DNA from: Candidatus Fermentibacterota bacterium
GTDB lineage: Bacteria > Fermentibacterota > Fermentibacteria > Fermentibacterales > JCC-6
Reading direction: 5' to 3'
DNA: 58,690 nt
Assembly (NCBI GenBank): GCA_014728175.1
Contig: WJMA01000001.1
Span: 1-58,690, forward strand
Shown here: one piece after another, positions 39,226 through 55,756 of the stretch
How positions within the stretch are numbered: position 1 is the first letter of the stretch
Layout of the letters: every line of letters begins with the position of its first letter
Position numbers and translations under genes: made by a program
The notes under the pieces: model-generated
Told to the model about the DNA's origin: nothing
Seen by the model: only the letters and a program-made list of their open reading frames with translations
The model's database searches: none

Positions 39226-39930
39226 TTGAACAAGCCACTGGTGATCGTTCCCACTTACAACGAGTTGGACAACATTAGAGCGTTGACTCCCCGGCTTCTG
39301 GAGCTTCCCATAGACGTCGACGTCCTGGTGGTGGACGACAACAGCCCGGACGGAACCGGGGACGCGGTACGGGAGATGGCCGCCGGAGGCAGGGTGCACT
39401 TGCTGGAAAGGCCGGGCAAGCAGGGCCTGGGCCAAGCCTACGTGGCCGGCTTCCATTGGGCGCTGGAGCGGGACTACGATCTGATAGTCCAGATGGATGC
39501 AGACTTCTCGCACAATCCCCAGAAGGTGCCCGAGCTGGTGGAAGCGCTGGAGGAGTGCGACCTGGCCATAGGCTCGCGCTACTGCAGCGGGGTGAACGTG
39601 GTGAACTGGCCTTTGAGCAGGTTGCTGCTCTCGTACTTCGCCAACCGGTACACCAAGCTGATCACCGGCCTGCCGGTCAACGATGCTACGGGGGGCTTCA
39701 AGGCCTTCCGCCGCAGCGCACTGGCAAAGCTGGACCTGTCACAGATAAAGAGCGATGGATACTCGTTCCAGATAGAAGTAACCTACAAGCTACACAAGTC
39801 GGGATGTACGGTGATGGAGATCCCCATAATCTTCGTGGACAGGCACGCTGGAACGTCCAAGATGACCAAGAGGATAGTCTGGGAAGCGGTGTGGATGGTC
39901 TGGCACCTGCGGTTTCCCTGGCTGATCTAA
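39226..39930 (+). CDS. Polyprenol-phosphate mannose synthase-like glycosyltransferase (GT2)
   Basis: The 234-residue GT-A protein resembles dolichol/polyprenol-phosphate mannose synthases. It has VIVPTYNELDNI at the N-terminus, VLVVDDNSPDGTGD (about 27-40), LIVQMDADFSHNP with the DxD metal site (about 87), AIGSRYCSGVNVVNWP and GFKAFRRSAL. There is no C-terminal membrane domain, so it is the short type. It makes a lipid-phosphate-linked sugar on the inner face for later membrane transferases such as the gene at 40944. TTG 39226 follows GGGAGGGG; longer frames to 39172 lack a ribosome site. It starts the glycan operon. Confidence 0.85.
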   Translation: MNKPLVIVPTYNELDNIRALTPRLLELPIDVDVLVVDDNSPDGTGDAVREMAAGGRVHLLERPGKQGLGQAYVAGFHWALERDYDLIVQMDADFSHNPQKVPELVEALEECDLAIGSRYCSGVNVVNWPLSRLLLSYFANRYTKLITGLPVNDATGGFKAFRRSALAKLDLSQIKSDGYSFQIEVTYKLHKSGCTVMEIPIIFVDRHAGTSKMTKRIVWEAVWMVWHLRFPWLI

Positions 39931-39988: not shown

Positions 39989-40957
39989 ATGGAAGTAAGA
40001 CAGCTGGTCGAGGCGGACAGGGACGCGTGGGCCGACTTCGTCCACAGGTCCAACAACGGCACCGTGTTCCATCTGCCGCAGTTCCTCGATTACCATCCGC
40101 CGGACAGGTTCGACGACCACCATCTGACGGTCGAGGACGGCGGGGAGATGCTGGCCGTGGTTCCGGGGGCGCTTTCCGAGGTGGAGGGAGAGACCTGGTT
40201 CTCCTCCTACCCCGGCGCCTCCTACGGGGGCCCGGTCATTCCCGACCGGATGGGGCTGCGGAAGGTGGAAAAGGTTATGGACGCCGTGGTCGGGTACTGC
40301 CGGGACCGGGGCTGGGAAGGAGTCCGGATGACTATTCCTCCCCAGGTCTACTTCCGCCGGCCTCACAACTACATCGATTTCGCCTTGTCCAAGCAGGGCC
40401 TGGGCTACTCGAAGCGCGAGCTCTCCGCGGTGATCGACCTCTCCCGGTTCGGCGAGGAGGTGGACCTGGCCTTCAGGTCGTCGGCCCGTAGAGGGGTGCG
40501 CAAGGCGATCAAGAACGGGATAAGGGTCGAGGAGAACGATGACTTCGGGGCCTTCTATCCGGTACTGGAAACCAACCTCAAGGACAGGCACGGGGTCAGG
40601 CCCACCCATACCCTGGAGGAGCTCTTCCTGCTGCGGAAGCTCCTGGGCGGCGAGAAGGTAAGGCAGTTCGTGGCGGTCGACGACCGGGACAGGATACTGG
40701 CGGGAATGGTAATGTTCCACTGCAACCCCCGGGTGACCCTCGCCTTCTACATATCGCACGACGAGGAATTCCAGAAGCTCCGCCCCGTGAACCTCCTGTA
40801 CAGGGAGGTGATCGACTGGGCCCGACAGATGGGTTACCGCTACCTCGACTTAGGCACCTTCACCCTGGAGATGGACGTGAATTACGGGCTGTGTCGGTTC
40901 AAGGAGTCGTTCACCGCCCGGGGAAGGTTCAGGGACACTTTCAGTGGCCGTATCTGA
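39989..40957 (+). CDS. FemAB/GNAT-like aminoacyl- or acyltransferase
   Basis: The 322-residue protein has the double-GNAT fold of FemAB-like and Acetyltransf_6 proteins. Visible are FVHRSNNGTVFHLPQFLDY (start), FSSYPGASYGGPVIPD, DLAFRSSARRGVRKAIKNG (the R-x-x-R-x-x-K linker typical of this group) and VNLLYREVIDWARQMGYRYLDLGTF near the end. Relatives add amino acids to peptidoglycan bridges or acyl/amino groups to exopolysaccharide sugars. In this operon a role in modifying the surface polymer is likely, but the substrate is not visible. Its end overlaps the next gene by 14 bp. Confidence 0.75.
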   Translation: MEVRQLVEADRDAWADFVHRSNNGTVFHLPQFLDYHPPDRFDDHHLTVEDGGEMLAVVPGALSEVEGETWFSSYPGASYGGPVIPDRMGLRKVEKVMDAVVGYCRDRGWEGVRMTIPPQVYFRRPHNYIDFALSKQGLGYSKRELSAVIDLSRFGEEVDLAFRSSARRGVRKAIKNGIRVEENDDFGAFYPVLETNLKDRHGVRPTHTLEELFLLRKLLGGEKVRQFVAVDDRDRILAGMVMFHCNPRVTLAFYISHDEEFQKLRPVNLLYREVIDWARQMGYRYLDLGTFTLEMDVNYGLCRFKESFTARGRFRDTFSGRI

Positions 40958-42239
40958 GACCGCCGTCTCCAGCAACATCGAATCTTCCAGCCGGCTCCGG
41001 ACGGCCCTTCTCTGGTCTTCGCTTCTGATCCTGGTCTTCGGGGGCAGGATGTACACCACCGACGTGGTGGCCCAGTACCAGGTCGGCAAGTCTTTAATAG
41101 GGAGCAGGGCCTTCCTGACCGCCGATGAGGGCTGGACCGTGGAAGGGGTTCGGGAGGACGGCCGCTACGTTCCCCACGGGCTGGGCTGGTCCATCCTTCT
41201 GGTCCCCGCCGCGGCGGTGGGGGCGCTTCTGGGAGCCTCGGCGGGAAAGGTGGCCACCGCGGCCACCGCGGCGGTCGCCAGCCTTATCCTGATTGCCATG
41301 TGGCACCGGCTGGCGGAGTCCAGGTTCGGACGGGTGGGCCCCTGGAGAATGGCCGCCCTGGGCGTGGGATGCATGGTTCTGGTTTACGGCAGGCTGCCCT
41401 TCGACGTCACCGCGGCGACCGCCTCGGCCCTGGCCGGGCTGGTGCTTCTGGAGCGGGACCGGCCGGTTTGGGCCGGGGTTTGCGTGGGGTTCGCCGTTCT
41501 GGTAAGGCTGGACAGCGTTCTGCTGCTGCCCGCCTTCTGGCGGGGGTGGAGAAAGAGCCTGCGGGTGGCCGGGGGCATGGCTCCGTTTCTGGTTCTGATC
41601 CTCGCGGCCAACTGGTACAGGTTCGGCAGCCTTCTCGACGACGGGCATTCCCAGGATCCGGCTGCGGCCCTGAAGCTGAGGGCGCGGGGAGTGGCGGGGC
41701 TGCTTCTCAGCCCCGGGAAGGGCCTTCTCTGGTACGCTCCCATGTTCGTCCTGGCCCTGGCTGTGAACCGCAGCTGGCGGCTGGTGACGCCCTTCGTCCT
41801 GGCTCTGCTCTTTCACGGCCTTATGCACGATTGGACCGGGGGTACGGGCTGGGGCCCCAGATTCATGCTGCCCGCCCTTCCCCTGCTCGCGCTTCCCCTG
41901 GCCAGACCGGGCCGGGGAGGGATCCTTTTCTGGGTGCTGGCGGGCTGGGGGGCATTGCTGACGGTCGCGGCGGTGTGGAGCAACCCGGCCGCGGTGGAGC
42001 AGGGCCTGGGGCCAGACCTCATAGACACCGCGGGAAGGCAATCCGTGGTATGGTCCCTTTCCTCCTCCCCCCTGCTAGCCAGTCTGCGGCGCATCGGCAC
42101 CGGGACGCCCGACATGTTCGGGGCCCACCTGGCCTCAGCCGCCGGGATCCCGCCGGCGGTGGGAGCCGCCTTCCAGGTGGTGTCGGCCCTGGTGGTGGCC
42201 GGGGCCTCCAGGATGGTGGGCGGAAGGCAGGAAGCTTGA
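40944..42239 (+). CDS. Polytopic membrane protein, GT-C-like
   Basis: The 431-residue protein has about 9-10 hydrophobic helices, beginning after a 20-residue polar N-terminus. The first periplasmic loop holds DVVAQYQVGKSLIG and acidic residues; FGGRMYTTDVVAQYQ lies near residue 35. In GT-C transferases a D/E pair in this loop is catalytic. The general layout resembles GT39/GT83-like or dolichol-P-mannose-dependent transferases, but no exact motif is found. It would use the lipid-linked sugar made by the gene at 39226. GTG 40944 overlaps the FemAB-like gene by 14 bp; its stop overlaps the next start (TTGA). Confidence 0.65.
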   Translation: MAVSETAVSSNIESSSRLRTALLWSSLLILVFGGRMYTTDVVAQYQVGKSLIGSRAFLTADEGWTVEGVREDGRYVPHGLGWSILLVPAAAVGALLGASAGKVATAATAAVASLILIAMWHRLAESRFGRVGPWRMAALGVGCMVLVYGRLPFDVTAATASALAGLVLLERDRPVWAGVCVGFAVLVRLDSVLLLPAFWRGWRKSLRVAGGMAPFLVLILAANWYRFGSLLDDGHSQDPAAALKLRARGVAGLLLSPGKGLLWYAPMFVLALAVNRSWRLVTPFVLALLFHGLMHDWTGGTGWGPRFMLPALPLLALPLARPGRGGILFWVLAGWGALLTVAAVWSNPAAVEQGLGPDLIDTAGRQSVVWSLSSSPLLASLRRIGTGTPDMFGAHLASAAGIPPAVGAAFQVVSALVVAGASRMVGGRQEA

Positions 42240-43321
42240 GGATACTGCACATCTCCCCCCAGAACTACACCGGGGTTCTCGACCTGTTTCCCCGTGGTCA
42301 CAGGGCCCTGGGGCACCAGAGCAGGCTGGTCACCTTCTACCGGGCGAAGAACGTCTATCCGGAGGACATCTGCCTGAACCTTCCCTTCGTGGGGCCCATG
42401 GGCTGGCTGTGGACGATGAAGAGGCTGCTGAGGGTAGGCAGCCTGCGGGTTCCCTTCACCGGATCCGACCGGCACGTGGTCTGGCGTCCGGGCGCGGTGG
42501 AGAGGGTGCTTCTGGGCCTGAGGAACCTGGTGTGGAACCCCATCGTAAGCAGGGCAGCCCGCCGGTACGGCCTGTGGGACTTCGACGTCTACCATCTGGA
42601 GGGGGGGATGAGCTTCTTCCGGGACGGCCGGGACGTACGGATGCTCAAGGAGAGGGGCAAGAAGATAGTCTCCTACTACCACGGCCTGGACCTGAGGATG
42701 AGGGGGGCGATACCCCCGGTCTGGGAGGCCACCGACCTGCACCTTACCTGCGAGTTCGACCTTTACCGCCGTTACCCCGAGCTCCGGTACGTTTTCCTGC
42801 CCTTCGACCCCGAGTCCGTACCCGCCGCCGATCCGGAGGGAGACCGGATAAGGATCTGCCACGCCCCCAGGATAAGGAGTGTGAAGGGAACCGAGAGGAT
42901 AATCGAGGTGGTCAAAGGTCTGTCCGGGGAGCTGCCGGTGGAGCTGGTTATGATAGAGAACCTTTCCCACGCCGAGGCCATAAGGCTGAAGGCCACCTGC
43001 CACGTAGCCGTAGACCAGATCGCGAGGGGCGACATGGGCTACGGGGTTAACTCCCTGGAGAGCCTGTCCATGGGCATTCCCACCGTAACCAACCTCTCCG
43101 GGGCCTACCGGGAGTTCGTACCGGACCATCCGTTCATCCTGGCCGACCCCGAAAACCTGAGCGAGGTTCTGCGGGAGCTGGTCCTGGACCCGGACATGAG
43201 GAGCCGTCACGGGGAGGCCGGCAAGGACTGGATAGCCAAGAGGCACCACTGGCGGTCGGTGGCGGAGGAGATACACCGGATCTACAGGGAGATGGGATGG
43301 GAAGACCCCGCCCGGGAATGA
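42236..43321 (+). CDS. GT4-like glycosyltransferase
   Basis: The 361-residue GT-B protein starts at TTG 42236 (overlapping the preceding stop). The N-terminal RILHISPQNYTGVLD is the usual beginning of GT4 enzymes. The C-terminal nucleotide-sugar part has RICHAPRIRSVKGTERIIEVV, VDQIARGDMGYGVNSLESLSMG (E-x7-E-like region) and TVTNLSGAYREFV. Donor and acceptor are unknown. It probably adds a sugar to the lipid-linked repeat in the cytoplasm. It is followed without a gap by the flippase (ATGA overlap). Confidence 0.82.
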   Translation: MRILHISPQNYTGVLDLFPRGHRALGHQSRLVTFYRAKNVYPEDICLNLPFVGPMGWLWTMKRLLRVGSLRVPFTGSDRHVVWRPGAVERVLLGLRNLVWNPIVSRAARRYGLWDFDVYHLEGGMSFFRDGRDVRMLKERGKKIVSYYHGLDLRMRGAIPPVWEATDLHLTCEFDLYRRYPELRYVFLPFDPESVPAADPEGDRIRICHAPRIRSVKGTERIIEVVKGLSGELPVELVMIENLSHAEAIRLKATCHVAVDQIARGDMGYGVNSLESLSMGIPTVTNLSGAYREFVPDHPFILADPENLSEVLRELVLDPDMRSRHGEAGKDWIAKRHHWRSVAEEIHRIYREMGWEDPARE

Positions 43322-44748
43322 CCGAAGCCGCCGCGTTGACCACCGAGAGGGGGGACCTGAAGAGGGAGACCTTCCTCTACGGGATCTCGATAGTGGTGAG
43401 CGGCCTGGTCCAGGCCGCCTTCCTTCCCTTCGTGTCCCTGTTCCTGCCCGCGGCGGCCGCCGGAGAGCTGGGAGCTCTGCGGGTCACGTCGGAGGCGGTG
43501 GCGGGAATAGTGGTACTGGGGCTGCCCACCGCCCTGGTGAAGTTATGGCAGGTAAGCAGGGCCCGGAGGTCGATCCTGCTGAGGGCCCTGGGGATTCCCC
43601 TGTTCCCCGCCCTGATCGTCGCCGCTCTGCTGTTCGCGCTGAAGGGTCCACTGGCCTCCCTGCTGCGTCTGGATCATCCCGGGTACCTGTTCCACGCCCT
43701 GCTGCTGGGCGTCGCGGTGGCCTACGTGCAGGTGATCCTGGCCCTGCCCCGCGCCGAGGGCCTGGCCGGAAGGTACATGGGCTTCCAGCTGGTCAGAGGG
43801 CTGGGCTCGGTGGGCCTGCTGGCCATGCTGCTGTTCGGGGGATGGGGAGGAGTACCGGCCTTCCTTTCCGCCAGATGGATTCCCTCCTACCTGGTGGTGG
43901 CGGTGGTGGCGGTGATTATGTGGAGGCGTACCGCGGCCTTTGCCCGGACCGAGCCGGAGGTGCCGGTTACCCGCAAGCTCCTGTCCTTCGGCCTCCCCCT
44001 GGTTCCGGCCAGCCTGGCCATGATAGTGCTGTCCTCCGCGGACATATACATGCTCAGGAACATCTATCCCGATCTGGCCGAGAGCGGGTACTACGAGTGG
44101 GCCAGCCGGGTGTGCATGGTTCTGGTTCCCCTGGTGCTGGGCTTCAGGATGGCCTGGCACAGGTTCATCTTTCGCCGGGGCCGGGAAGGGGGACGCCTGG
44201 AGGAGCTGGGCCGGCTGGCCATGCTGTTCATGCTTCTGGTCAACTGGGCGGCGCTGGTCCTGGCCATGGCCTCCCCGGAGATAAGCTGGCTGGTCGGCGG
44301 CAGCACGTACTACCCGGCCTCGCGGATACTGCCCTGGTTGGCCGGGTCTTCGGCGATGTACGCGCTGTTCCTGGTTTCCCAGACCGGCCCGCTTCTGACC
44401 GGGCATACCAAGCTGATAGGAGCGATGACCGTAATCGGGGCGGTGCTGAACATCATATTCAACCTGAGGCTCATCCCCGTCGCCGGCGGGGTGGGAGCGG
44501 CGTTCGCCACCCTGGCCACCAACCTGTTCATGGCCCTCAGCCTGTTCTGGATGGGCAGAAAGGTATTCCCCATAAGCTTTTTGGCCGTGACCATGGTGGT
44601 GATTCCCCCCATCGTTTACGGACCGTTGGCCGGTCTATCGGGTATGGTAAGGGGAATGGTCGCTCTGGGAGGGTCGGTGCTGATGGCTCTGCTGACCTGG
44701 GTGCTCAGAGCGGCCGGAACCAGGCTGAAGGGACTGCGTGGAAGCTGA
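43318..44748 (+). CDS. Wzx/MATE-type polysaccharide flippase
   Basis: The 476-residue polytopic membrane protein has about 12-14 hydrophobic helices. The N-terminal FLYGISIVVSGLVQAAFLPF and LPLVPASLAMIVLSSADIYML are typical of oligosaccharide-flippase proteins (MVF/MOP superfamily). It should turn the lipid-linked repeat unit across the inner membrane. The ATG overlaps the GT4 stop. Wzy polymerase is not obvious in this window; the gene at 40944 might take that role, but the match is poor. It overlaps the next GT2 gene by 11 bp. Confidence 0.83.
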   Translation: MTEAAALTTERGDLKRETFLYGISIVVSGLVQAAFLPFVSLFLPAAAAGELGALRVTSEAVAGIVVLGLPTALVKLWQVSRARRSILLRALGIPLFPALIVAALLFALKGPLASLLRLDHPGYLFHALLLGVAVAYVQVILALPRAEGLAGRYMGFQLVRGLGSVGLLAMLLFGGWGGVPAFLSARWIPSYLVVAVVAVIMWRRTAAFARTEPEVPVTRKLLSFGLPLVPASLAMIVLSSADIYMLRNIYPDLAESGYYEWASRVCMVLVPLVLGFRMAWHRFIFRRGREGGRLEELGRLAMLFMLLVNWAALVLAMASPEISWLVGGSTYYPASRILPWLAGSSAMYALFLVSQTGPLLTGHTKLIGAMTVIGAVLNIIFNLRLIPVAGGVGAAFATLATNLFMALSLFWMGRKVFPISFLAVTMVVIPPIVYGPLAGLSGMVRGMVALGGSVLMALLTWVLRAAGTRLKGLRGS

Positions 44749-45664
44749 GATATCGGTTCAGATACCGGCCAAGGATCCTCCCCGTGAGGCCTTCCAAACC
44801 ACTCTGGACTGCCTCCGCCGCCAGGAGACGGGAGGCAGGCCCTGGGAGCTGGTTATCGTGGACGACGGCAGCGAGGTCCCGGTAAGGGAGCGGTTCGACC
44901 TCACCTTCCCCGGAAACGTCTCGGTCAAGCTGGAGGAGACCGGGCGGCCCAGCGGACGGGCCACCGCCAGGAACCTGGCCTGGCGGAGCTCGGCCGCGCC
45001 TATCTCGCTCATGATGGACGCCGACCTGGCCTCCGAGCCCGATCTGCTCCGGAGGCATCTGAGAGACCATGGGGAAGAGGGATGGGACGTGGTGATGGGA
45101 GCCCGGGTCAACGCCTGGAGGGAGAACGCCTCCTCCTGGGAGAGGTGGTGCGACGGCAGGGCCATGGACCATCTTCCCCCCGGGCCCTTTCCCTGGAGGT
45201 ACTTCATAACCGGCAACATCAGCGTCCCCCGGCGGATGATGGAGGAAACGGGAGGATTCGATACCAACATAGTTCTCTACGGCGGAGAGGACACCGAGCT
45301 GGGATTGAGGTTGAAAAAGCTGGGCGTCAGCCTGTTCTGGGATCCCGAGATAAGGGTGAGGCATCTGGACCACGTTCCCCTGCGCAGGCACCTGGGAAGG
45401 CTGGTCGACTACGGCAAGACCGGTCTGCGCTATATTCTGGAGAAGCATCCGGAGGCCCGAACCCTCCTGGGAAGTCACTGGGTGGTGGGGCCGGCCCGGG
45501 GAGCGATCGTACTGTGGAGGCCGTTGGTCCGCCTTACTCTGCTCAGACCGGTCTACAGGAGCGTACTGCGATGGATGGAGCGGGTGGGCCGGCCCGGTTT
45601 CCTGTTCACCTACCTCTCGGTGGGCGCTCACCTGATGGGCCTTCTGGACCGGGATTTCAGATGA
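44738..45664 (+). CDS. GT2-family glycosyltransferase
   Basis: The 308-residue GT-A protein has ISVQIPAKDPPREAF at the N-terminus, ELVIVDDGSE, SLMMDADLASEP (DxD metal site) and GGFDTNIVLYGGEDTELGLRL, which carries the ED acceptor-binding motif of GT2 and chondroitin-type transferases. Its C-terminal 60 residues are amphipathic and may touch the membrane. GTG 44738 overlaps the flippase; ATGA links it to murB. It probably adds a sugar to the polymer. Confidence 0.83.
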   Translation: MEAEISVQIPAKDPPREAFQTTLDCLRRQETGGRPWELVIVDDGSEVPVRERFDLTFPGNVSVKLEETGRPSGRATARNLAWRSSAAPISLMMDADLASEPDLLRRHLRDHGEEGWDVVMGARVNAWRENASSWERWCDGRAMDHLPPGPFPWRYFITGNISVPRRMMEETGGFDTNIVLYGGEDTELGLRLKKLGVSLFWDPEIRVRHLDHVPLRRHLGRLVDYGKTGLRYILEKHPEARTLLGSHWVVGPARGAIVLWRPLVRLTLLRPVYRSVLRWMERVGRPGFLFTYLSVGAHLMGLLDRDFR

Positions 45665-46566
45665 GGGTGCTGCAGGAGATTAAGGACAGGTTCGGGAGCA
45701 TGGTCAGCACCGTACCTCTGAGGGACGCCACCACCTGGAGGATAGGGGGCCCGGGGCTGGTGCTGGACCTGCCCGGGGTGGACGCTCTGGCGGAGGCTCT
45801 TTCCCTGGCCGAAAGTACGGGAGTCCCCTGGTTCGTTCTCGGAAGGGGGTCCAACGTACTGGCCGCCGATGAAGGCTATGACGGTATTGTGGTAAGGCTC
45901 TCCGGGCGGCTTGCCGGCTACAGCATCCGCCGCCGGGGCCGCGGCTACGTGATGCAGGCCGGAGGTGGGGCTCCCCTTCCCAGCGCGGCCGGGGCGGCCT
46001 GCATGGCCGGAGCCACCGGCCTGGAGTTCGCCTGCGGAATACCCGGGACCATCGGAGGCGCGGTATTCATGAACGCCGGAGCCTACGGGGGGTCGATGTC
46101 CGACCTGGTGATAGTGGTGACCGCGGTGGGCCCGGACGGCTCCGTGGTTCGTCTGGACGGGGTGGACTGCGGCTTCGGCTACCGCGACAGCGTGTTCCAG
46201 AGGCGTAGGATGGTGGTGGCCGGGGTCGAGCTGTACATGCCGGAGGGAGATGTGTTCGATATAAAAAGGGAGGCCTCCCGTCTTCTGGACGAGAGGCGCC
46301 ATAAGTATCCCCTGGACCTTCCCAACGCGGGAAGCGTGTTCAAAAGGCCCCCGGACGGTCCTCCCCCGGGCAGGCTTTTGGAGGATGCGGGAATGAAGGG
46401 GGTACGGGAGGGAGACGCCGAGGTTTCCCGGGTGCACGCCAACTTCATAATCAACAGGGGCCGGGCCACCGCCGCCGAGGTTCGGCGCCTTATTGAGAGG
46501 GCGAGGAAGGCCGTGCTCAAGCGAAGCGGCATCTCGCTGGAAGAGGAGATACGCTACCTGGGGTAG
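45661..46566 (+). CDS. murB: UDP-N-acetylenolpyruvoylglucosamine reductase
   Basis: The 301-residue FAD enzyme reduces enolpyruvyl-UDP-GlcNAc to UDP-MurNAc in peptidoglycan synthesis. Family blocks are TTWRIGGPG, the FAD loop LGRGSNVLAADEG, GLEFACGIPGTIGGAVFMNAGAYGG (split over about residues 120-144), the active-site FGYRDSVF (Ser acid) and NAGSVFKRP with the closing VHANFIINRG. Usual length is about 300 residues. It is translated from ATG 45661, overlapping the GT2 stop. Its place inside a glycan operon rather than with mur/fts genes is unusual. Confidence 0.93.
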   Translation: MRVLQEIKDRFGSMVSTVPLRDATTWRIGGPGLVLDLPGVDALAEALSLAESTGVPWFVLGRGSNVLAADEGYDGIVVRLSGRLAGYSIRRRGRGYVMQAGGGAPLPSAAGAACMAGATGLEFACGIPGTIGGAVFMNAGAYGGSMSDLVIVVTAVGPDGSVVRLDGVDCGFGYRDSVFQRRRMVVAGVELYMPEGDVFDIKREASRLLDERRHKYPLDLPNAGSVFKRPPDGPPPGRLLEDAGMKGVREGDAEVSRVHANFIINRGRATAAEVRRLIERARKAVLKRSGISLEEEIRYLG

Positions 46567-46577
46567 ATGGAGAGAAG

Positions 46578-47519
46578 ATGGCTGAACGCAGCGACTCGTC
46601 GAGGCTTGGTGGGCCGGTCCTGGTAACCGGTGCGGCCGGGTTCGTGGGGGGGCATCTCATGCGGAAGCTCTCCCTGGGGGAAGGAGACTACGCCACGGAC
46701 ATCGACGACCGCTTCCAGGCTCCTCCGGGAGTGACCCGGCTGGCATGGCGGCTCCCCGGAGATCCTCCCCCCGGGCTGGGCGAGGTCGGATGCGTGGTGC
46801 ACCTGGCCGCGGTGAGCTCGGTGCGCCGCTCACTCGAGGGGATGCGCAGCACCTGGGAGACCAACCTGATGGGAACCCTGGCGGTGCTGGATTACATGGT
46901 TCGGAAAATCCCGGAGGCCAGGCTGCTTCTGGTGAGCTCCTCCGAGGTGTACAGGCCATCGGAGGACGTTCTGACCGAGGAATCACCCCTAGGCCCTGTG
47001 AACCCCTACGGGGCTACCAAGGCGGCCGCGGAGCGGGCGGCCTTCCAGTACGCCTCCGTACACGGGTTGGACGTGGTCGTGGCCCGATCCTTTCCCCACT
47101 TCGGGCCCGGACAGAGCTCCGATTTCGCCCTCCCGGCATTCTGCCGGAGGATAGTGCGGGCGGAGAGAAACGGGGAAGACGGGGTACGGGTCGGCAACCT
47201 GGAGGCGGTGCGGGATTACCTGTACGTTGACGACGTGGTGAGGGCCTACGAAGAGCTGATTACAGAGGGGAGGCCGGGAAGCGCTTACAACGTATGCAGC
47301 GGCTCGGGCTCCTCCATGGGCCAAATATTGGAGATTCTGCTGGACCTGGCGGAAGCCGATCTCGAGATCGAGAAAGATCCGGATCTGTTCAGGCCGGTAG
47401 ACGTTCGCTGCCAGGTGGGCGACCCTTCCCGGCTCCGCTCCCTCTCCGGCTGGTCCCCGGGGGTGAGCCTGCGGGGAGGGCTGGGCATGCTGCTCGATTA
47501 TTGGAGGGAGCGGGAATGA
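46578..47519 (+). CDS. NAD-dependent sugar-nucleotide epimerase/dehydratase
   Basis: The 313-residue extended SDR protein has the Rossmann motif VTGAAGFVGG near residue 17. The active-site triad is in LLVSSSEVYRP (Ser) and NPYGATKAAAERA (Tyr-x3-Lys). RDYLYVDDVVRAY and YNVCSGSGSSMGQILE are common to GDP-mannose 4,6-dehydratase/GDP-6-deoxy-lyxo-hexulose reductase-like and GalE-like members. The exact substrate is unclear; GDP-sugar processing is possible because of the GDP-deoxyhexose reductase-like (RMD) style of the C-terminus. It ends in an ATGA overlap with the propeller gene. Confidence 0.8.
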   Translation: MAERSDSSRLGGPVLVTGAAGFVGGHLMRKLSLGEGDYATDIDDRFQAPPGVTRLAWRLPGDPPPGLGEVGCVVHLAAVSSVRRSLEGMRSTWETNLMGTLAVLDYMVRKIPEARLLLVSSSEVYRPSEDVLTEESPLGPVNPYGATKAAAERAAFQYASVHGLDVVVARSFPHFGPGQSSDFALPAFCRRIVRAERNGEDGVRVGNLEAVRDYLYVDDVVRAYEELITEGRPGSAYNVCSGSGSSMGQILEILLDLAEADLEIEKDPDLFRPVDVRCQVGDPSRLRSLSGWSPGVSLRGGLGMLLDYWRERE

Positions 47520-49690
47520 GTGCCCTGATCGGCTTCCTGGCCTGCCTGATTTCCTCCCCCGGGGTAAGCGAGTGGGAACACTTCACCCATCTGGGAGCGG
47601 TGAGCGACCTGGCCCTGCAGGGCGAAGTCGTGGTCTGCGCCACCTCCGGGGGGGTATGCTTCACCGGCATACACGGCGACTCCGCATCCTGGGACTCGGT
47701 GTGGAGCTACCCCCAGAGGCTCTCGCACTGCGACGCGCGGGCACTGTCCATCGACGGGGAAGGGGGATTGTGGATAGGCCTGCACGGGGGAGGGATAGAC
47801 CTGGTCCGTTCCGACGGCTCCACCCGGCATTACGGGCAGCTGGAGGGGCTGCCGCTGTCTCTGGAGCTCACCTCCATCGTTCCGGACACCTTCGTGTACG
47901 CCGGCACCACGGAAGGGTTGGCCATAAAGGAGATGGATTACTTCGTAACCTGGACCACCTACGGCACCGGCGGCGGGCTGCCGGGCAACCGGGTGACCTG
48001 TCTGCAACCGGTGGAGGCCGGCCTCGTGGTAGGGACGAACGGCAACGGCATAAGCATGCTTGGAGCCGGCGGATACCCGGGAGATATCTCCTCCTGGCTG
48101 GTGTACGACGAGACCTCCGGAATGTCCGTCCACGACATGGCTACGTCCGGGGATACGGTATGGGCGGCGACCTCCGGGGCGCTGCTGCGGCTGCTTCCCG
48201 ACAGCTCCTGGCAGGTGGTGACCGGTTACCCCGGGGCTACCGCCTTCAGCGTCAGCGCCGAAGGGGGCACGCTGGCGGTGGGAGATGTCGGCCGGGTGCA
48301 CGTTCGACGGGAGGGCTCGTGGATATCAAGTGAGATTTACGGGGGCCAGGTGATCAGGTGCATCGAGCTGGTAGGCCCCGATTCGCTTCTGGCCGGGATG
48401 GTGGGCGAGCTTTCCGTGGAGCGGGCCAGCGGAAGGGGCCTGGCCTGGGGCTGGCTGGAGAGCTGGGCCTACGACTGGCCCGCATCCTGTCCGTCCAACG
48501 ATCTGATGGACGTGACCCTGGACTCCGCAGGCGATTGCTGGGTAAGCACCAATCACAACGGCGCGGGGGTCCTGTCCGACGGTGAGTGGACCGATTTCCA
48601 ATCCCAGCTGTCCGGCTCCAACCAGGTTTTCGTCTGCCAGGGCGATCCCGGAGGAGGGGTATTCGTAGCGCCCTACCACAGGGGCCTGGATTGGCTGGAC
48701 TGGCGGGGAACCCCTTCCATCGCAGACGACACGCTGCTCCATTGGGACTCCGCCGAAAGCGGCCTTCTGAACGACCAGGTAACCGCTTCCGCGTCGGCGT
48801 CGGAGGGCGTAATGTGGATCGGGCAGGAACCCTTCTGGACCACCCCGGGCGAAGTCTCGGGAGTGGTCCGGCTCAGCTGGGACCCCGGAGATCCCAATAC
48901 CTGCTCCTGGGTCTCGGTCAGCACCTCCGAGAACCTGCCCTCGCCCTTCGTGAACTCGGTGGCAGCGGTGTCGACCTCCCGGGCCTGGGCGGGCACCGAC
49001 GAGGGTGCCGCCCTGGTGGACGCCGGGGCCGGAGAGGTGGTTCGGGTGGTGGGGGAGGCCCAGGGCCTTCCCTCATCGGAGGTGAGCGCGGTGGCGGTGG
49101 GCCCCAACGGCAGGGTGTACATGGGGACCACGGCCGGGCTGTCCCGACTGGAGAACGATGGTAGCGTTTCCGACGTGGAGCCGGTGCAGGGGATGGTCGG
49201 TGAGGTGACCGTCGACAACCTGTCCGCCGTGTGGGCGGCGACGGAGGAAGCGGTGTACCGGATACTCTGGGACGGCGACTGGGAGGAGTTCAACCCTCTG
49301 AGCAGCCCGCTCCTGTCCACCAACGTCAGGGCGATGACCTGCGACCGGGAGGCGGGGCTTCTGTACATGGCCACCGACCACGGCCTGTGGCGGCTGACCC
49401 TGGAGTCCGGGCTGCAGGGCGACGGCTCCAGTCCCTCCGTCTTCCCCAATCCATTTCTGCCGGGCAGGGGGGAGGTCCTCCGGGTGGCCGGAATACCCGA
49501 CGAGCCTACCTCCTTGCAGGTGTTTGACCTAGATGGAAGCCTTGTTTATGAGTCTCAGTCCCGGAACAGGTCGGCCCTGTCCTGGGAGGGAAGGACGGCC
49601 GCCGGATCGAAGGCGGCCTCGGGCACGTACCTGGTTCGCATAACTCAGGGAGGCAGCTTCTGGTTGGTGAAGCTGGCTCTGATCAGATGA
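47516..49690 (+). CDS. PorZ-like double-propeller protein with type IX-type sorting tail
   Basis: The 724-residue protein has a signal peptide (about 1-16) and two sets of two-component-regulator-like propeller repeats (about 25-610). Repeat phrases include ALSIDGEGGLWIGLHGGGI, NRVTCLQPVEAGLVVGTNGN, SEVSAVAVGPNGRVYMGTTAGL and TCDREAGLLYMATDHGLWRL. The last 80 residues form a FlgD-like tail with VFPNPFLPG, LQVFDLDGSLVYE and GTYLVRIT. Length and layout resemble PorZ of the Porphyromonas type IX system, which binds the anionic lipopolysaccharide used to anchor cargo; this likeness is from memory of the family, not an alignment. It sits inside the surface-glycan operon. ATG 47516 overlaps the epimerase stop. 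Confidence 0.72.
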   Translation: MSALIGFLACLISSPGVSEWEHFTHLGAVSDLALQGEVVVCATSGGVCFTGIHGDSASWDSVWSYPQRLSHCDARALSIDGEGGLWIGLHGGGIDLVRSDGSTRHYGQLEGLPLSLELTSIVPDTFVYAGTTEGLAIKEMDYFVTWTTYGTGGGLPGNRVTCLQPVEAGLVVGTNGNGISMLGAGGYPGDISSWLVYDETSGMSVHDMATSGDTVWAATSGALLRLLPDSSWQVVTGYPGATAFSVSAEGGTLAVGDVGRVHVRREGSWISSEIYGGQVIRCIELVGPDSLLAGMVGELSVERASGRGLAWGWLESWAYDWPASCPSNDLMDVTLDSAGDCWVSTNHNGAGVLSDGEWTDFQSQLSGSNQVFVCQGDPGGGVFVAPYHRGLDWLDWRGTPSIADDTLLHWDSAESGLLNDQVTASASASEGVMWIGQEPFWTTPGEVSGVVRLSWDPGDPNTCSWVSVSTSENLPSPFVNSVAAVSTSRAWAGTDEGAALVDAGAGEVVRVVGEAQGLPSSEVSAVAVGPNGRVYMGTTAGLSRLENDGSVSDVEPVQGMVGEVTVDNLSAVWAATEEAVYRILWDGDWEEFNPLSSPLLSTNVRAMTCDREAGLLYMATDHGLWRLTLESGLQGDGSSPSVFPNPFLPGRGEVLRVAGIPDEPTSLQVFDLDGSLVYESQSRNRSALSWEGRTAAGSKAASGTYLVRITQGGSFWLVKLALIR

Positions 49691-49712
49691 GCGTGTGGGG
49701 AGGAGGTTTGCG

Positions 49713-50456
49713 GTGAAAGGCGTGGTGCTGGCCGGGGGCCTGGGAACCAGGCTCCGTTCGCTGACCAGAATAACCAACAAGCATCTTTTGCCGGTCTACG
49801 ACCAGCCCATGATATTCTACCCGCTGCAGAAGCTGGCCGAGGCCGGGGTGGTGGACGTCATGCTGGTCACCGGCGGAAGCAGCGCCGGCGATTTCCTCCG
49901 GCTCCTGGGAGACGGATCCAGGTTCGGGCTGGAGAGCCTGAACTACGCCTACCAGGAGCGGGAGGGTGGAATCGCGGAGGCCATAGGCCTGGCCCGGGGA
50001 TTCGTGGGCGACGACAGGTTCGTGGTAATTTTGGGCGACAACATAATGGAGTGCTCCCTCCGGCCCTATCTGGAACCCTACGAGCGTCAGGAATCCGGGG
50101 CCAGAGTGCTTCTGTACGAGGTGGAGAACCCCAGTGACTACGGGGTGGCCGAGATGGACGGAGACTCCGTGGTGTCCATAGAGGAGAAGCCCCGGCAGCC
50201 CAAGAGCAACCTGGCGGTGATAGGCGTCTACATGTACGACGGCTACGCGTTCGAGGTGATAGAAGACCTGGAGCCGTCCGACCGGGGCGAGCTGGAGGTT
50301 ACGGACGTCAACAACGCCTACCGGGAGCGGGGCCTTCTGAAGGCCGATGTAATCGAGGGATGGTGGGCGGACTGCGGCGCCAGCATCGACTCGCTTCTGA
50401 GGGCCAACCTGAGGGTGGCCAGGATGAAGGGCTGGAAGGAAGAGGATACGCCTTGA
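49713..50456 (+). CDS. rmlA: Glucose-1-phosphate thymidylyltransferase-like nucleotidyltransferase
   Basis: The 247-residue protein has the GGGLGTRL-type signature as KGVVLAGGLGTRLRSLT, then NKHLLPVYDQPMIFYPLQ, VTGGSSAGDF, FVVILGDNIMEC (Mg-binding Asp) and SIEEKPRQPKSNLAVIGVYMY. These are RmlA marks: it makes dTDP-glucose from dTTP and glucose-1-phosphate. It is shorter than typical RmlA (about 290), as in the short RmlA/RffH-like group. GTG 49713 follows a strong GGAGGAGG; the longer frame from 49695 is unlikely. It feeds rmlB, which overlaps its end. Confidence 0.88.
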   Translation: MKGVVLAGGLGTRLRSLTRITNKHLLPVYDQPMIFYPLQKLAEAGVVDVMLVTGGSSAGDFLRLLGDGSRFGLESLNYAYQEREGGIAEAIGLARGFVGDDRFVVILGDNIMECSLRPYLEPYERQESGARVLLYEVENPSDYGVAEMDGDSVVSIEEKPRQPKSNLAVIGVYMYDGYAFEVIEDLEPSDRGELEVTDVNNAYRERGLLKADVIEGWWADCGASIDSLLRANLRVARMKGWKEEDTP

Positions 50457-51490
50457 GGCTGCTGGTTACCGGAGGAGCCGGCTTCATAGGAAGCAACTTC
50501 TGCCATTACCTGGCGGGGGAAAGGCCGGACTGGCGGGTGACGGTTCTGGACAAGCTGACCTACGCGGGCAGAAGGGAGAACCTGGAGGAGCTGGAGTCCG
50601 GTAAGGGCCTTCGCTTCATCCAGGGCGATATTTGCCGTCCCGAGGACGTCGCCGGGGCCATGGAAGATTGTGACGCGGTGGTCAACTTCGCCGCCGAGAC
50701 CCACGTGGACCGCTCCATACAGGACTCCGCCGACTTCGTCCGCACCGACATGGAGGGAGTGCGGGTGCTCCTGGAGGAGTTCGGGAACCACGGCGGCGGG
50801 ACGTTCCTGCAGGTATCCACCGACGAGGTGTACGGAAGCGTGGAGAAGGGAAGGTCGGGGGAGGACGACCTCTTGCGCCCCACCAGCCCCTACTCCGCAT
50901 CCAAGGCGGGGGGCGAGCTCCTGGCGATGAGCTACTGGCACACCCACCGGACGCCGGTCGTGGTGGCCAGAAGCTCGAACAACTACGGCCCCAGGCAGTA
51001 TCCGGAGAAGCTGATCCCCCTGTTTCTCACCAATGCCATGGACGGCCAGCGGTTACCCCTGTACGGCGACGGGATGAACAGACGGGACTGGCTGTACGTG
51101 GAGGACAACTGCCGGGCCCTGCTTCTCCTGCTGGAGGAAGGACGGCCCGGCAGGGTGTACAACGTGGGCGCCGGCCAGGAGCTTACCAACCTGGAGGTGA
51201 CCGAGGCCATTCTGGAGGCGGTGGGCGCTCCCCGGGACCTGGTGAGCTTCGTAGACGACCGGCCGGGTCACGACCGCAGGTACGCCCTGGACGTCAGCCG
51301 GGTATCCGAGGAGCTGGGATGGAGGCCGGAGGTAGGCTTCCAGGAAGGTCTTCGCCGCACCGCACAATGGTACATGGAGAACAGGGAGTGGTGGGAGGAG
51401 ATAAAGTCCGGGCGGTTCCGGGAGTACTACCAGAGGATGTACTCCGATAGGCTCCGAAGGGCCGAGCAGCGGGAAGAGAAGGAGCTATGA
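50453..51490 (+). CDS. rmlB: dTDP-glucose 4,6-dehydratase
   Basis: The 345-residue extended SDR has [32 protein letters not shown] with the catalytic Thr-Asp-Glu, and [13 protein letters not shown] with Tyr-x3-Lys. [16 protein letters not shown] and [15 protein letters not shown] complete the RmlB pattern. It converts dTDP-glucose to dTDP-4-keto-6-deoxyglucose, the branch point to rhamnose and other deoxysugars. rmlC and rmlD are not in the window, so the later steps are either elsewhere or lead to another sugar. TTG 50453 overlaps the rmlA stop; the end overlaps the next gene (ATGA). Confidence 0.93.
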
Positions 51491-52419
51491 GAATACTGGT
51501 GACCGGGGGAGCCGGGTTCATAGGCAGCCATCTGTGCGACCGGCTGCTGCAGACGGGTCACTACGTGGTGGCGTTGGACAACCTCATAACCGGTTCGGTG
51601 GACAACATCGCCCACCTCGCCGGAAGGAGGGACTTCAAGTTCATTCACCACGACGTCACCGAGTTCATATTCATCCAGGGAGCGATAGACTGCGTGTTCC
51701 ATCTGGCCAGCCCGGCCAGCCCGGCGGACTACCTGGCCTACCCCATTCAGACCCTCAAGGTCGGAGCCCTGGGCACCCACAAGGCCCTGGGCCTGGCCAA
51801 GGAGAAGAGCGCCTGCTTCCTGCTGGCCTCGACCAGCGAGGTTTACGGCGACCCCACCGAGCATCCCCAGTCCGAGGACTACTGGGGAAACGTGAACCCG
51901 GTGGGTCCCAGGGGGGTCTACGACGAGGCAAAGAGGTTCGCCGAGGCCCTTACCTTCGCCTACCACCGCTACCATGGGGTGGACGTCAAGATCGCCCGCA
52001 TATTCAACACCTACGGTCCCCGGATGAGGGCGGACGACGGAAGGGTGGTTCCGGCCTTCGTATGCCAGGTGCTTAGAGATGAGCCACTCACCGTTTTCGG
52101 CGACGGCAGCCAGACCAGAAGCTTCTGCTACGTGTCGGACACGGTGGAGGCCCTGGTCAGGCTCATGCAGAGCGAGATCACGGGACCGGTCAACGTGGGC
52201 AACCCCGACGAGATGACCATCCTGGAGTTCGCCGAGTTCGTGCGCAAGCTGGGAGGAAAGGACAGCCGCATAGTTCACCGCGAGCTGCCGAAGGACGACC
52301 CCAAGGTGCGTAGACCCGACATCTCGCTGGCCAGGGAGAAGCTGGGCTGGCAGCCCGAGGTCGGTCTGGAGGAGGGGATAAAGCGTACCATGGATTACTT
52401 CAGGGGGATGGTTTGCTGA
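51487..52419 (+). CDS. UDP-glucuronate decarboxylase (UDP-xylose synthase)
   Basis: The 310-residue SDR is of the UXS group. [12 protein letters not shown] starts it, then [23 protein letters not shown] (segments typical of UXS), STSEVYGDP and [12 protein letters not shown] with Tyr-x3-Lys. [12 protein letters not shown] and [16 protein letters not shown] finish the match. It oxidises and decarboxylates UDP-glucuronate to UDP-xylose, a donor for surface polymers. It is shorter than eukaryotic UXS because it lacks the N-terminal membrane part. ATG 51487 overlaps rmlB. The stop overlaps the SLBB gene. Confidence 0.9.
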
Positions 52420-53603
52420 CCCTGGTAATGGTGACGGTCCAGCTGGTCTTCGGCGGACTGACCCCCGGGCCGGTCGATGCGGACGTCGCCCAACCGGATA
52501 CGGAGCGGCGACTGCTGAGACGGGTGGATCGCGCCAGCTATCTGCTGGGGCCGGGAGACGTTCTTCAGGTGGTGGTGGAGGGAGGCTGCACCGAGGCCAT
52601 GCGGGCTTCGGGGGTCTCTCCCCTCTCGGTATGCACCGTGAGCTGCGACGGCATGATTTCCGTGCCCGGCATAGGCAGGGTGGAGGCCGACGACCGGACC
52701 ATAGACCAGGTGGAGACCGCCCTGCGGTCGCTGGCCCTGGAGTACTACCCGCGCATCGGGCTGGGGCTGTCGCTTACCCGTCCCCGGGCGGTAAGGGCTA
52801 CGGTCAGGGGCCTGGTGGATTCACCCGGTTCCTACCAGCTTACGGCCGTGAATACAGTGTCCGAGCTCCTGAAAGCCGCGGGCGGGCCGTCGGTCTACGC
52901 GTCTCGTAGGGGAACCATGTTACTGGAATCCGGAGATACCCTGAGCGTGGATCTGACGGTCGACCCCTCCACCATGGAGTACGTCAGCGACCCGTTCTTG
53001 AGAAACAATTCGGTGGTGGTGTTCGACATCTGTCCCTCTCCGGTATTCGTGGTCCGAAGCTCGCGGTTAGTGCTTCCAGACCGGCGGGTGGTACCCGCCG
53101 TGGAGACCTGGGACATCGACCCCCCGGAGGATCTGGGCAGGTTCCTCGAACGTACCGGAGGCCTGGCGGGCAACGTGGATCTGTCCCGGAGCGTGCTGCT
53201 GCGGGAATCCACCGGGAGGGCTCTGTGGAACCCGAGCGCGGGTCTGCTTCGGGAGGAGCTGCTTCCCGGAGACACCCTGATGCTGGTTCTTCTTTCCGAC
53301 TCGGTCGCGGTAAGCGGCGCGGTCAGGAACCCCGGAAAGCAGCCATACACTCCGGGCTTTACGGTCAGGGAGTACGTGTCCCTGTCCGGAGGCAGCGACG
53401 AGATGGCCGATCTGGACGATACCAGGCTTCTGCACGAGGGGCGGGTCCTGATGGAGGGAGAGGAGGCGCTGAGCTTCGTGCCTTCCCCCGGGGACGTGGT
53501 GGAGGTGCCCTACACCTGGATCGCCAAGCACGGCGATTACATAACCGCCATGAGTATGACCGTGGGCATAATTTCCATACTCTACAACATTACGGGGAAG
53601 TAG
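52413..53603 (+). CDS. SLBB/Wza-like polysaccharide export protein
   Basis: The 396-residue protein has a hydrophobic start (about 1-15), then a Poly_export (PES) domain, [16 protein letters not shown] to [15 protein letters not shown], and SLBB domains: [30 protein letters not shown] and [30 protein letters not shown]. No lipobox Cys is seen, so it differs from the classical lipoprotein Wza. The C-terminal hydrophobic [17 protein letters not shown] may cross or touch a membrane. It should form the outer export channel for the glycan. The TTG start overlaps the UXS stop. Confidence 0.85.
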
Positions 53604-53607
53604 CACC

Positions 53608-54867
53608 ATGGAACCAGAGGCTCCGACCGGCTACGACAGCTTCCTGCACGAGCTGCTGTCCAACCTCGCCCGGAACGCCAGAGGGATCGCCCTTTTCTGC
53701 ATCCTGGCGTTGGTGGCCTCCTCCATCTATGCCCTCACCAGGGAGACCAGGTTCACCTCGTCGGCCGTGCTCATGGTTCCCGGAGGCACCCAGCAGGTGG
53801 GAATCGAACTCGGGCAGGTGGCGTCGCAGCTTCTTCCGGGAACCGCCCGCAGCCTGGACCTGACCGGTCTACCGGATCTGGGAAGTCCTTCCGGCCCCGA
53901 TATAACGGTCGCCCAGCGGCTGCTTTCATCCAGAACCACCATGGAAAAGGTTATTCTCCGTTACGATCTGGTCAGCCGGTACGACTCATACAGCATGGAG
54001 AGGGCCCTGGAAAAGGCCGGGAGGAGGTTCTCAGTGGATTTGAGCGACGACGGCTTTTTAATCGTCAGCGCTCAGGCCGACGAGCGGGAGAGGGCCGCAG
54101 CCATGGTCCGGGACTGGATATCCATAGCCAACGACGAGCTGTCCAGAATAGTGACCAGCAGGGCCAGAAGGGCCCGGATGGAGACCGAGGAGGCCCTGCG
54201 GGTCGCGAACGATTCCCTGCAGGCCGCCCAGCAACAGATGGAGGAGTTCAGGACCCGAACCGGGTTGTACTTCCTCGAGTCCCAGTCCGCTCAGGCCGTT
54301 ACGGTGCTGGGAGAAGTGGAGGCCAGCCTGGTGGAGGCGGAGGCCGAGCTGGCCGGCCTGCGGGGGGCGGTATCCCACCTGAGCCCGGCATACAGGGAGA
54401 TAGCCAGGAAGGTGGAGTACCTCAGGGGCGCCCTCGAGCAAAGGCTGGGTGAGGGGGACTCGCTGAGCGTGTTTCCCGGGCTGCAGCGGATGCCGGCCAT
54501 AGTAAGGGAGTTCGAGACCCTGGAGACCAAGCTGCAGGCCCGACGGCTGGTGAGCATGATGCTGCAACAGCAGCTGGAGAAGCTTCGCATACGGGAGGCC
54601 ACCGACAGCCCCACCCTGGAGGTGGTGGTTCCTCCGTCCCCTTCCCATCTGCGGAGCTATCCCAAGAGGAAGAAGATGGTGTTCCTGTTCACCCTCGCCG
54701 CCCTGGTGGTGGCCCTGGCCCTGATGACCGTCCTGACCTACCTCCGCCGGGTAGGCCGGGACGAGCGGCTGGGCCCTTTCTGGAAAGGCCTGCTGGCCGA
54801 GGCATCCAGACAGCTGTACCTTCCTCGGCGGCTCTGGCGGGGGCTGCGACGGGGCAGGGAGGACTGA
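53608..54867 (+). CDS. Wzz/GumC-type chain-length determinant
   Basis: The 419-residue protein has membrane segments at about 28-46 (IALFCILALVASSIYAL) and 352-373 (MVFLFTLAALVVALALMTV). The long periplasmic part includes a coiled coil (about 190-330; EEALRVANDSLQAAQQQMEEF, LVEAEAELAGL). A SYPKRKKM basic motif before the last helix matches the Pro-rich end of Wzz proteins. No fused tyrosine-kinase domain is present. It sets polymer length with the SLBB channel. ATG 53608 is 4 bp after the previous stop. About 190 bp with weak promoter signals follow before phoB. Confidence 0.85.
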   Translation: MEPEAPTGYDSFLHELLSNLARNARGIALFCILALVASSIYALTRETRFTSSAVLMVPGGTQQVGIELGQVASQLLPGTARSLDLTGLPDLGSPSGPDITVAQRLLSSRTTMEKVILRYDLVSRYDSYSMERALEKAGRRFSVDLSDDGFLIVSAQADERERAAAMVRDWISIANDELSRIVTSRARRARMETEEALRVANDSLQAAQQQMEEFRTRTGLYFLESQSAQAVTVLGEVEASLVEAEAELAGLRGAVSHLSPAYREIARKVEYLRGALEQRLGEGDSLSVFPGLQRMPAIVREFETLETKLQARRLVSMMLQQQLEKLRIREATDSPTLEVVVPPSPSHLRSYPKRKKMVFLFTLAALVVALALMTVLTYLRRVGRDERLGPFWKGLLAEASRQLYLPRRLWRGLRRGRED

Positions 54868-55054: not shown

Positions 55055-55756
55055 ATGAGAGAGGACGGAACCGGCAAGAGGCTAATCGTCGTTGTGGACG
55101 ACGAGCCCGATATACGGGATCTGGTCAGGCTCCATCTGGAAAGGGGCGGATTCCAGGTGGAATGCTTCGGGGACGCCGAGTCGTTCCTATCCTTCCTGGA
55201 GAAGAACCTTCCTGAGCTGGTGATCCTGGATCTGATGCTTCCCGATATCCACGGTACGGAGGTCTGCAGGATGCTGAGGGACGGTGACCGAACCTCGGCC
55301 CTGCCGATGATAATGCTCACCGCCCTGGGCGAGGAGGCCGACCGGGTCCTGGGCCTGGAGCTTGGGGCCGACGATTACGTTAGCAAGCCGTTCTCTCCCA
55401 GAGAGCTGGTATCCAGGGTCAAAGCGGTTCTGCGCCGCGGCGGCAGACTCGAGGAGGCCGGTTCCATAATGCGGGCGGGAGCGAGGATAGCCCTGGACGT
55501 GGAGAGGTTCGAGACCAACGTCGACGGCCGGAAGGTCAACCTGACTCCCACCGAGTTCCGGATACTGAGAACCCTGGCCGAGGGCAAGGGCAGGGTGTAC
55601 TCCCGCAAACGCCTGCTGGAGATACTCTGGGAGGGCGAGAAGATCGTGTTCGAGAGAACGATCGACGTTCACATCCGCAACCTGAGGAAGAAGCTCGGCG
55701 ACGCCGGGGAGGCCATAAAGAACGTCCGGGGTATAGGCTACAAGCTGGAGACCTGA
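55055..55756 (+). CDS. phoB: PhoB-type response regulator
   Basis: The 233-residue OmpR/PhoB-family protein has a receiver domain (about 9-125) with acidic pair Asp15/Asp16, phosphorylation site Asp59 (VILDLMLPD), Thr89 and Lys111 (VSKPFSP). It also has a winged-helix effector (about 140-233) with LTPTEFRILRTLAEG and TIDVHIRNLRKKLGD. With PhoR it should switch on phosphate-starvation genes. The name rests on the adjacency to pstS and the Pho-box-like array at 57513. The start is the ATG at 55055 in a 190-bp leader. TGATG couples it to the kinase. Confidence 0.88.
   Translation: MREDGTGKRLIVVVDDEPDIRDLVRLHLERGGFQVECFGDAESFLSFLEKNLPELVILDLMLPDIHGTEVCRMLRDGDRTSALPMIMLTALGEEADRVLGLELGADDYVSKPFSPRELVSRVKAVLRRGGRLEEAGSIMRAGARIALDVERFETNVDGRKVNLTPTEFRILRTLAEGKGRVYSRKRLLEILWEGEKIVFERTIDVHIRNLRKKLGDAGEAIKNVRGIGYKLET

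Follow-up and report, generated by a model that had tools for sequence, protein, structure and literature searches.

A divergent PorZ homologue encoded within a glycan operon of Candidatus Fermentibacterota

A PorZ-like gene and the operon around it

The DNA considered here (the window, 58,690 nucleotides) is a complete contig, WJMA01000001.1, of a 2.6 Mb assembly (GCA_014728175.1; 63% G+C) from a bacterium of Candidatus Fermentibacterota, whose named relatives by protein search are Candidatus Fermentibacter, Aegiribacteria, Sabulitectum and Hyd24-12. It carries a gene for a protein resembling PorZ, lodged among genes for glycan synthesis and export (Table 1). In Porphyromonas gingivalis, PorZ binds the anionic lipopolysaccharide (A-LPS) and delivers it to PorU (PMC8545088). 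The open reading frame extends from an ATG at 47516 to a stop at 49690, has a high coding score and a Shine-Dalgarno-like stretch, GGAGGGAGCGGGA, 5′ of its start, and is conserved over its full length, at 36–49% identity, in most genomes of the order; the gene is genuine. Relatives have two PorZ-like genes in the equivalent cluster, and the one in the window is paralogue A.

The product gave a Reg_prop match of 53 bits and a match to the type IX tail model TIGR04183 of 25.9 bits, above the cut-off of 23. For an AlphaFold model built from a 28-sequence alignment (pLDDT 88.3, pTM 0.86), the top Foldseek match in the Protein Data Bank (PDB) was P. gingivalis PorZ (5m11; E 9.8e-30, TM 0.66), spanning both propellers and the tail. 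In this predicted structure the PorZ arrangement, two propellers followed by an immunoglobulin (Ig)-like type IX C-terminal domain, is present in the same overall layout, at about 15–18% identity by structure alignment. A hidden Markov model (HMM) trained only on PorZ of other families scored 333 bits across residues 6–724. The NCBIfam PorZ equivalog, NF052228, returned 86.8 bits against a cut-off of 260, which in a wide survey was passed in 8 of the 59 matching genomes, and we therefore claim homology and not equivalog membership: paralogue A is a divergent PorZ homologue. The sequence-only reading had described a double propeller of PorZ-like length with a type IX tail and had staked the likeness on structural comparison with PorZ; the propellers, tail and fold are borne out, whilst the length is 724 residues against 776 for the P. 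gingivalis protein.

The propellers of hybrid two-component sensors such as BT4663 and BT4673 share the two Reg_prop propellers, and sequence profiles fail to separate PorZ from these sensors because the repeats dominate. A profile search alone indeed places the sensor structures 3v9f and 4a2l above PorZ through repeat matches, and beyond the cluster, at 55055–57516, lie genes for a response regulator and a histidine kinase, so that one could picture the protein as a glycan-sensing propeller akin to the periplasmic sensors rather than as a carrier. We consider this very improbable. The window protein has no kinase, membrane anchor or Y_Y_Y domain and ends in a type IX tail; comparison of whole structures strongly favours PorZ, the sensor-kinase propellers coming next among the Foldseek matches with a partial superposition (TM ~0.33); and the kinase has a Cache-like sensor of its own, the kinase and regulator pair beginning beyond a 187-nt gap. 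The sensor reading was dropped on the whole-structure match, the tail and the lack of an anchor.

In Fermentibacterota the signal peptides of the PorZ-like proteins are hydrophobic and very short, and many lack any positive charge (47516–47570 in the window, and relatives). PorZ A, PorZ B and three PorU-like proteins have tails of hairpin type; shorter tails occur in the proteins at 14676 and 17775. In P. gingivalis the uncleaved tails of PorU and PorZ are reported to be of the hairpin type (PMC11285876). As a mark of uncleaved PorU and PorZ tails, however, the hairpin is suggestive at most and is not exclusive to these proteins. A protein at L122:9874 bears a similar WDG tail that the tail pattern misses, and 10 of 61 PorZ fall outside that pattern.

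Between 39226 and 54867, 14 genes share a strand and are spaced by −25 to +58 nt, ahead of the 187-nt gap mentioned above; given this tight packing they are likely to form a single transcription unit. An epimerase gene overlaps the PorZ-like gene, as the sequence-only reading had it, by 4 nt, and downstream the gaps are +4 nt to the RmlA-like gene and −4 nt to each of the next two. The order rmlA, rmlB, UXS claimed there also stands, and RmlB exceeds its cut-off, but the RmlA-like protein is short and below cut-off and the UXS-like enzyme lacks a decisive model. The glycosyltransferases, sugar-nucleotide enzymes, Wzx, Wza and Wzz of the operon would together build and export a polymer. The regulator and kinase beyond the gap may control the cluster. 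Elsewhere in the window, the tails ascribed to the proteins at 1037, 14676 and 17775 are indeed of type IX, all over the cut-off. The first of these is one of two tandem FG-GAP repeat proteins (2–745 and 1037–2878) with near-identical N-termini, the other being cut by the contig end.

Table 1. Genes and features of the window discussed in the text (SDR, short-chain dehydrogenase/reductase; GT, glycosyltransferase)
Position	Strand	Feature	Evidence or remark
1037..2878	-	FG-GAP repeat protein with type IX tail, possible cargo	
14676..16223	+	M28 peptidase with type IX tail, possible cargo	
17775..19733	+	C25 (gingipain-family) peptidase with type IX tail, possible cargo	
39226..39930	+	GT2 glycosyltransferase, polyprenyl-phosphate sugar synthase type	
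39989..40957	+	FemAB/GNAT-type aminoacyltransferase, VimA-like	Pfam Acetyltransf_6 and FemAB; TIGR03019 51.4 bits (cut-off 260); adjacency in relatives
40944..42239	+	Protein with multiple membrane spans, GT-C or polymerase-like	Weak LA_3751 match
42236..43321	+	GT4-type glycosyltransferase	
43297..44748	+	Wzx-type flippase	Weak HfsF-like match; L140 homologue is Pfam Polysacc_synt
44738..45664	+	GT2 glycosyltransferase	
45661..46566	+	MurB-like UDP-N-acetylenolpyruvoylglucosamine reductase	Position conserved throughout the order
46578..47519	+	SDR sugar epimerase/dehydratase	Overlap with PorZ-like gene is ATGA
47516..49690	+	PorZ-like paralogue A (724 aa), with two beta-propellers between a short signal peptide and a C-terminal type IX tail	HMM, predicted fold
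49436..49687	+	C-terminal Ig-like tail of paralogue A, residues 641–724	Hairpin type, invariant final Arg
49695..50456	+	Short RmlA-like sugar nucleotidyltransferase, 253 aa	Under RmlA cut-off
50453..51490	+	RmlB, dTDP-glucose 4,6-dehydratase, TTG start	418 bits, cut-off 365
51487..52419	+	UXS-like SDR, UDP-glucuronate decarboxylase type	No decisive model
52413..53603	+	Wza-like polysaccharide export protein	Poly_export and SLBB
53608..54867	+	Wzz/KpsE-like chain-length or export protein	

Conservation of the cluster and the pairing of porZ with femAB

The cluster was mapped in 12 other genomes of the order, where the shared order is Omp85-like, GT2, PorZ B, FemAB, multi-span protein, GT4, Wzx, GT2, MurB, SDR, PorZ A, RmlA-like, RmlB, UXS-like, Wza and Wzz, some loci having a few genes missing, mis-called or past the contig end. 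The RmlA-like gene lies directly 3′ of PorZ A in all 12. Genes in the fetched loci were called by a simple script; their limits are therefore approximate, and calling went wrong for some GC-rich genes (L040, L041). In a quick tree, PorZ A and PorZ B each form one clade and the two clades are sisters, from which we conclude that they arose by duplication; the predicted fold of paralogue B is also PorZ-like (TM 0.59). In the window's own cluster the GT2 and FemAB genes adjoin, paralogue B having moved from between them. The relocated gene stands between the gene for a tail-bearing protein and other genes.

The best family match of the FemAB enzyme, below cut-off, is TIGR03019. P. gingivalis VimA is reported to match this family too, and was shown to determine the serine or glycine, the amine-bearing group, on the sugar that links type IX cargo to A-LPS (PMC7468200). 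By this analogy, an enzyme of the VimA type within the operon is what glycan attachment would need. Set beside the Wbp/Vim linking-sugar pathway (PMC7468200), the window has a FemAB/GNAT enzyme whose best match is the family that VimA matches, in a glycan cluster connected with type IX genes, whilst its sugar genes are rmlA-like, rmlB and UXS-like instead.

The pairing of this enzyme with PorZ was followed through 794 genes in 55 loci, among them PorZ loci taken from some 38 genomes that do not belong to the order. Of the 20 FemAB-like genes found, 18 lie directly 3′ of porZ on the same strand, with a spacing of −89 to +24 nt; the exceptions are L040, where paralogue B was mis-called but does lie directly 5′, and the window, where it has moved. 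Beyond Fermentibacterota, porZ-femAB was seen in families f6 (two genomes), f12, f61, f154, f157 and f229, the FemAB assignment being backed by Pfam and NCBIfam in these six, save for f157, where Pfam alone backs it. The FemAB model behind the count among the 794 genes was partly trained on porZ neighbours. A narrower model (Fermentibacterota and L053) found genes at L140, L144, L149 and, weakly, L050, all directly after porZ, and so recovered f12 (weakly), f61 and f154 without having their porZ neighbours in its training. In L140 (f61) the order porZ-femAB-GTC-GT4-wzx-GT2 is that of Fermentibacterota, and in L050, L139 and L146 the pair is joined to GT genes.

Members of the FemAB family add amino acids to muropeptides, a MurB gene lies in the same cluster, and one FemAB homologue has FemX as its second-ranked match in NCBIfam. 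The FemAB and MurB-like enzymes might accordingly serve peptidoglycan precursors, leaving the PorZ-like gene as an ordinary type IX component that happens to share the operon. We think this distinctly unlikely, since the pair persists outside Fermentibacterota in loci where no MurB was seen, the best-matching family is the exopolysaccharide-associated TIGR03019, and GT4 and wzx, or other GT genes, accompany the pair in the loci just described. TIGR03019 is usually tied to exosortases, and the XrtA/PEP-CTERM exosortase system likewise has a FemAB gene beside an exopolysaccharide cluster. An exosortase explanation of the enzyme was dropped, however, as no exosortase over cut-off was present in the eight Fermentibacterota genomes tested. 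Searching the PDB with the FemAB protein brought no useful match. A plasmid collection yielded weak fragments only.

Other neighbours of porZ also touch on glycan synthesis. In f69 (L155–L157) an Amidohydro_2 gene takes the place that FemAB has elsewhere after porZ and is followed by GT4, wzx and GT2. At L160:10035–11826 porZ precedes genes for a NeuD-like acetyltransferase and a DegT aminotransferase, enzyme types of the aminosugar synthesis of the Wbp pathway, and in L152 it precedes a UDP-GlcNAc 2-epimerase gene. P. gingivalis PorZ and the window protein have in common type IX machinery in the genome and a tie to surface glycan, but the window gene is duplicated and sits inside a glycan operon, whereas in the Bacteroidota-type locus L128 porZ adjoins a recO-like gene (unlabelled neighbours there were named by reading the sequence). 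The link between porZ and glycan genes is frequent, not universal. In many families a gene resembling Lnt (apolipoprotein N-acyltransferase), again as read from the sequence, lies directly 5′ of porZ, as in L050, L053, L133, L135, L139, L140, L146 and L149 and is often preceded by purM-like genes; Lnt-like-porZ is a second old neighbourhood of porZ. As far as we can tell, the porZ-femAB pair and the duplicated PorZ in a glycan operon have both gone unreported before.

Type IX machinery in the genome

The sequence-only reading had called for a search of the genome for type IX components. SprA, PorU-like proteins, PorV and a PorQ-like protein were found, though GldL and GldM were not detected. 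SprA summed to 416.9 bits in one frame of 1,863 residues (cut-off 200). The PorV gene adjoins a PorU-like gene on contig C29, and its product scored 234 bits for the PorV/PorQ family, over the cut-off of 90, and 178.6 bits for the PorV equivalog, under the cut-off of 250. Full-length PorU-like proteins of the window genome (G000) reached 387 bits against a cut-off of 420, which is exceeded in the relatives G001 and G010; their catalytic regions align with PorU 6za2, GHG with GHG and TCD with TCD. The PorQ-like protein lies below its own cut-off. GldK was dropped as a mark of type IX secretion, its matches covering part of the model and resembling a general domain. LpxC is present, and lipid A is therefore likely to be made.

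Several PorU-like sortases are encoded on contigs C2, C29 and C30 (L118, L119, L120), and a Sir2-like gene lies between two of them. C29 and C30 each terminate in a truncated PorU gene; the two share their opening sequence and have different ends, which suggests a repeat or a recent duplication.

Of 16 genomes, the Bacteroidota-type control G374 alone gave a GldM match; the protein was not detected in G000, G001, G003–G005, G010, G037, G040, G042, G044, G050, G099, G192, G198 or G337, all of which have PorZ homologues. The motor is absent or too divergent for detection, and the type IX systems of these genomes may use another or a very divergent one. On contig C52 (L122:1947–3160), just 5′ of genes for tail-bearing and PorV-like proteins, two genes read from the sequence as ExbD-like were seen; this pair is a candidate alternative energy supply.

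Type IX systems have been listed in several phyla of the Fibrobacteres–Chlorobi–Bacteroidetes (FCB) group, Fermentibacterota not being among them (PMC11285876). Our literature search found no paper linking Fermentibacterota with type IX secretion, and none linking FemAB with it.

A possible route from glycan to secreted protein

It seems to us rather likely, by analogy with P. gingivalis, that the PorZ-like gene encodes a divergent PorZ that carries surface glycan to the type IX sortase. In such a joint mechanism the polymer would be built on a lipid carrier, flipped by Wzx and exported, and the FemAB/VimA-like enzyme (39989) would place an amino acid on one sugar to provide a free amine. Paralogue A, and B, would exit by the type IX route with their tails kept, bind the polymer at the surface and present it to PorU, which would cleave the tails of cargo proteins and join each new C-terminus to the sugar-borne amine; the proteins at 1037, 14676 and 17775 are possible cargo in the window. 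The carrier would have been duplicated in the Fermentibacterota lineage, giving paralogues A and B. The sequence-only reading had already suggested a link between the operon's glycan and the attachment of tail-bearing proteins. The context (type IX parts in the genome, FemAB in the operon, porZ-femAB in several families) lends good support to this proposed link. Two things make it stronger than could then be known: the presence in the operon of a FemAB whose best match is the VimA-matched family, and the occurrence of porZ in glycan clusters, often beside FemAB, in several unrelated families.

Several observations weigh against this carrier role. The equivalog score of paralogue A is below cut-off, and that of the FemAB enzyme for TIGR03019 is far below it; the likeness to VimA runs through this shared family and not through direct sequence comparison. 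No Wbp-pathway or VimE-like deacetylase genes are present in the window's cluster. Paralogue B of the window genome is found away from the glycan cluster, on contig C16:31600–33846 (L047:9598–11847). The GldL and GldM models have no match in that genome, and in many other families porZ lies among riboflavin or recN genes and not among glycan genes. Finally, the Wza-like exporter hints at a capsule or exopolysaccharide and not at a polymer linked to lipid A.

This last point bears on an alternative in which the PorZ-like proteins, as binding or assembly factors delivered by the type IX system, display or retain the exported polysaccharide itself and take no part in joining it to cargo. The Wza-like and Wzz/KpsE-like export genes mean that the polymer may be a capsule or exopolysaccharide, and two paralogues in one cluster would fit a structural role. 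We nevertheless regard simple display as unlikely, since PorU-like sortases with intact catalytic motifs are present together with PorV, and a FemAB/VimA-like enzyme beside porZ in many families fits the chemistry of attachment better.

If PorZ does act here as a carrier of glycan, the implications extend beyond this lineage. To our knowledge, the gluing of type IX cargo to the cell surface is understood in detail in no more than a few oral Bacteroidota, where the genes for making the glycan, for adding the amine and for carrying the product were identified singly, through mutation. The operon described here brings the carrier gene, and one for an enzyme of the amine-adding type, together with the glycan genes, so that the whole pathway could be read from one operon. 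It is possible, and we put it forward tentatively, that porZ-femAB with glycosyltransferases and a flippase is an old and widely kept module outside Bacteroidota. On this view the coupling of surface glycans to the C-termini of proteins, by way of a sugar that bears an amino acid, would be a general process, able to work with type IX systems that have no known GldL/GldM motor, and several PorU sortases of Fermentibacterota would be served by two PorZ carriers. Our data suggest that proteins are glued to surface glycans far beyond Bacteroidota. They yield a prediction open to test, namely that the attachment of secreted proteins to glycans extends to uncultured lineages, and porZ beside femAB would provide a genomic marker for finding it.

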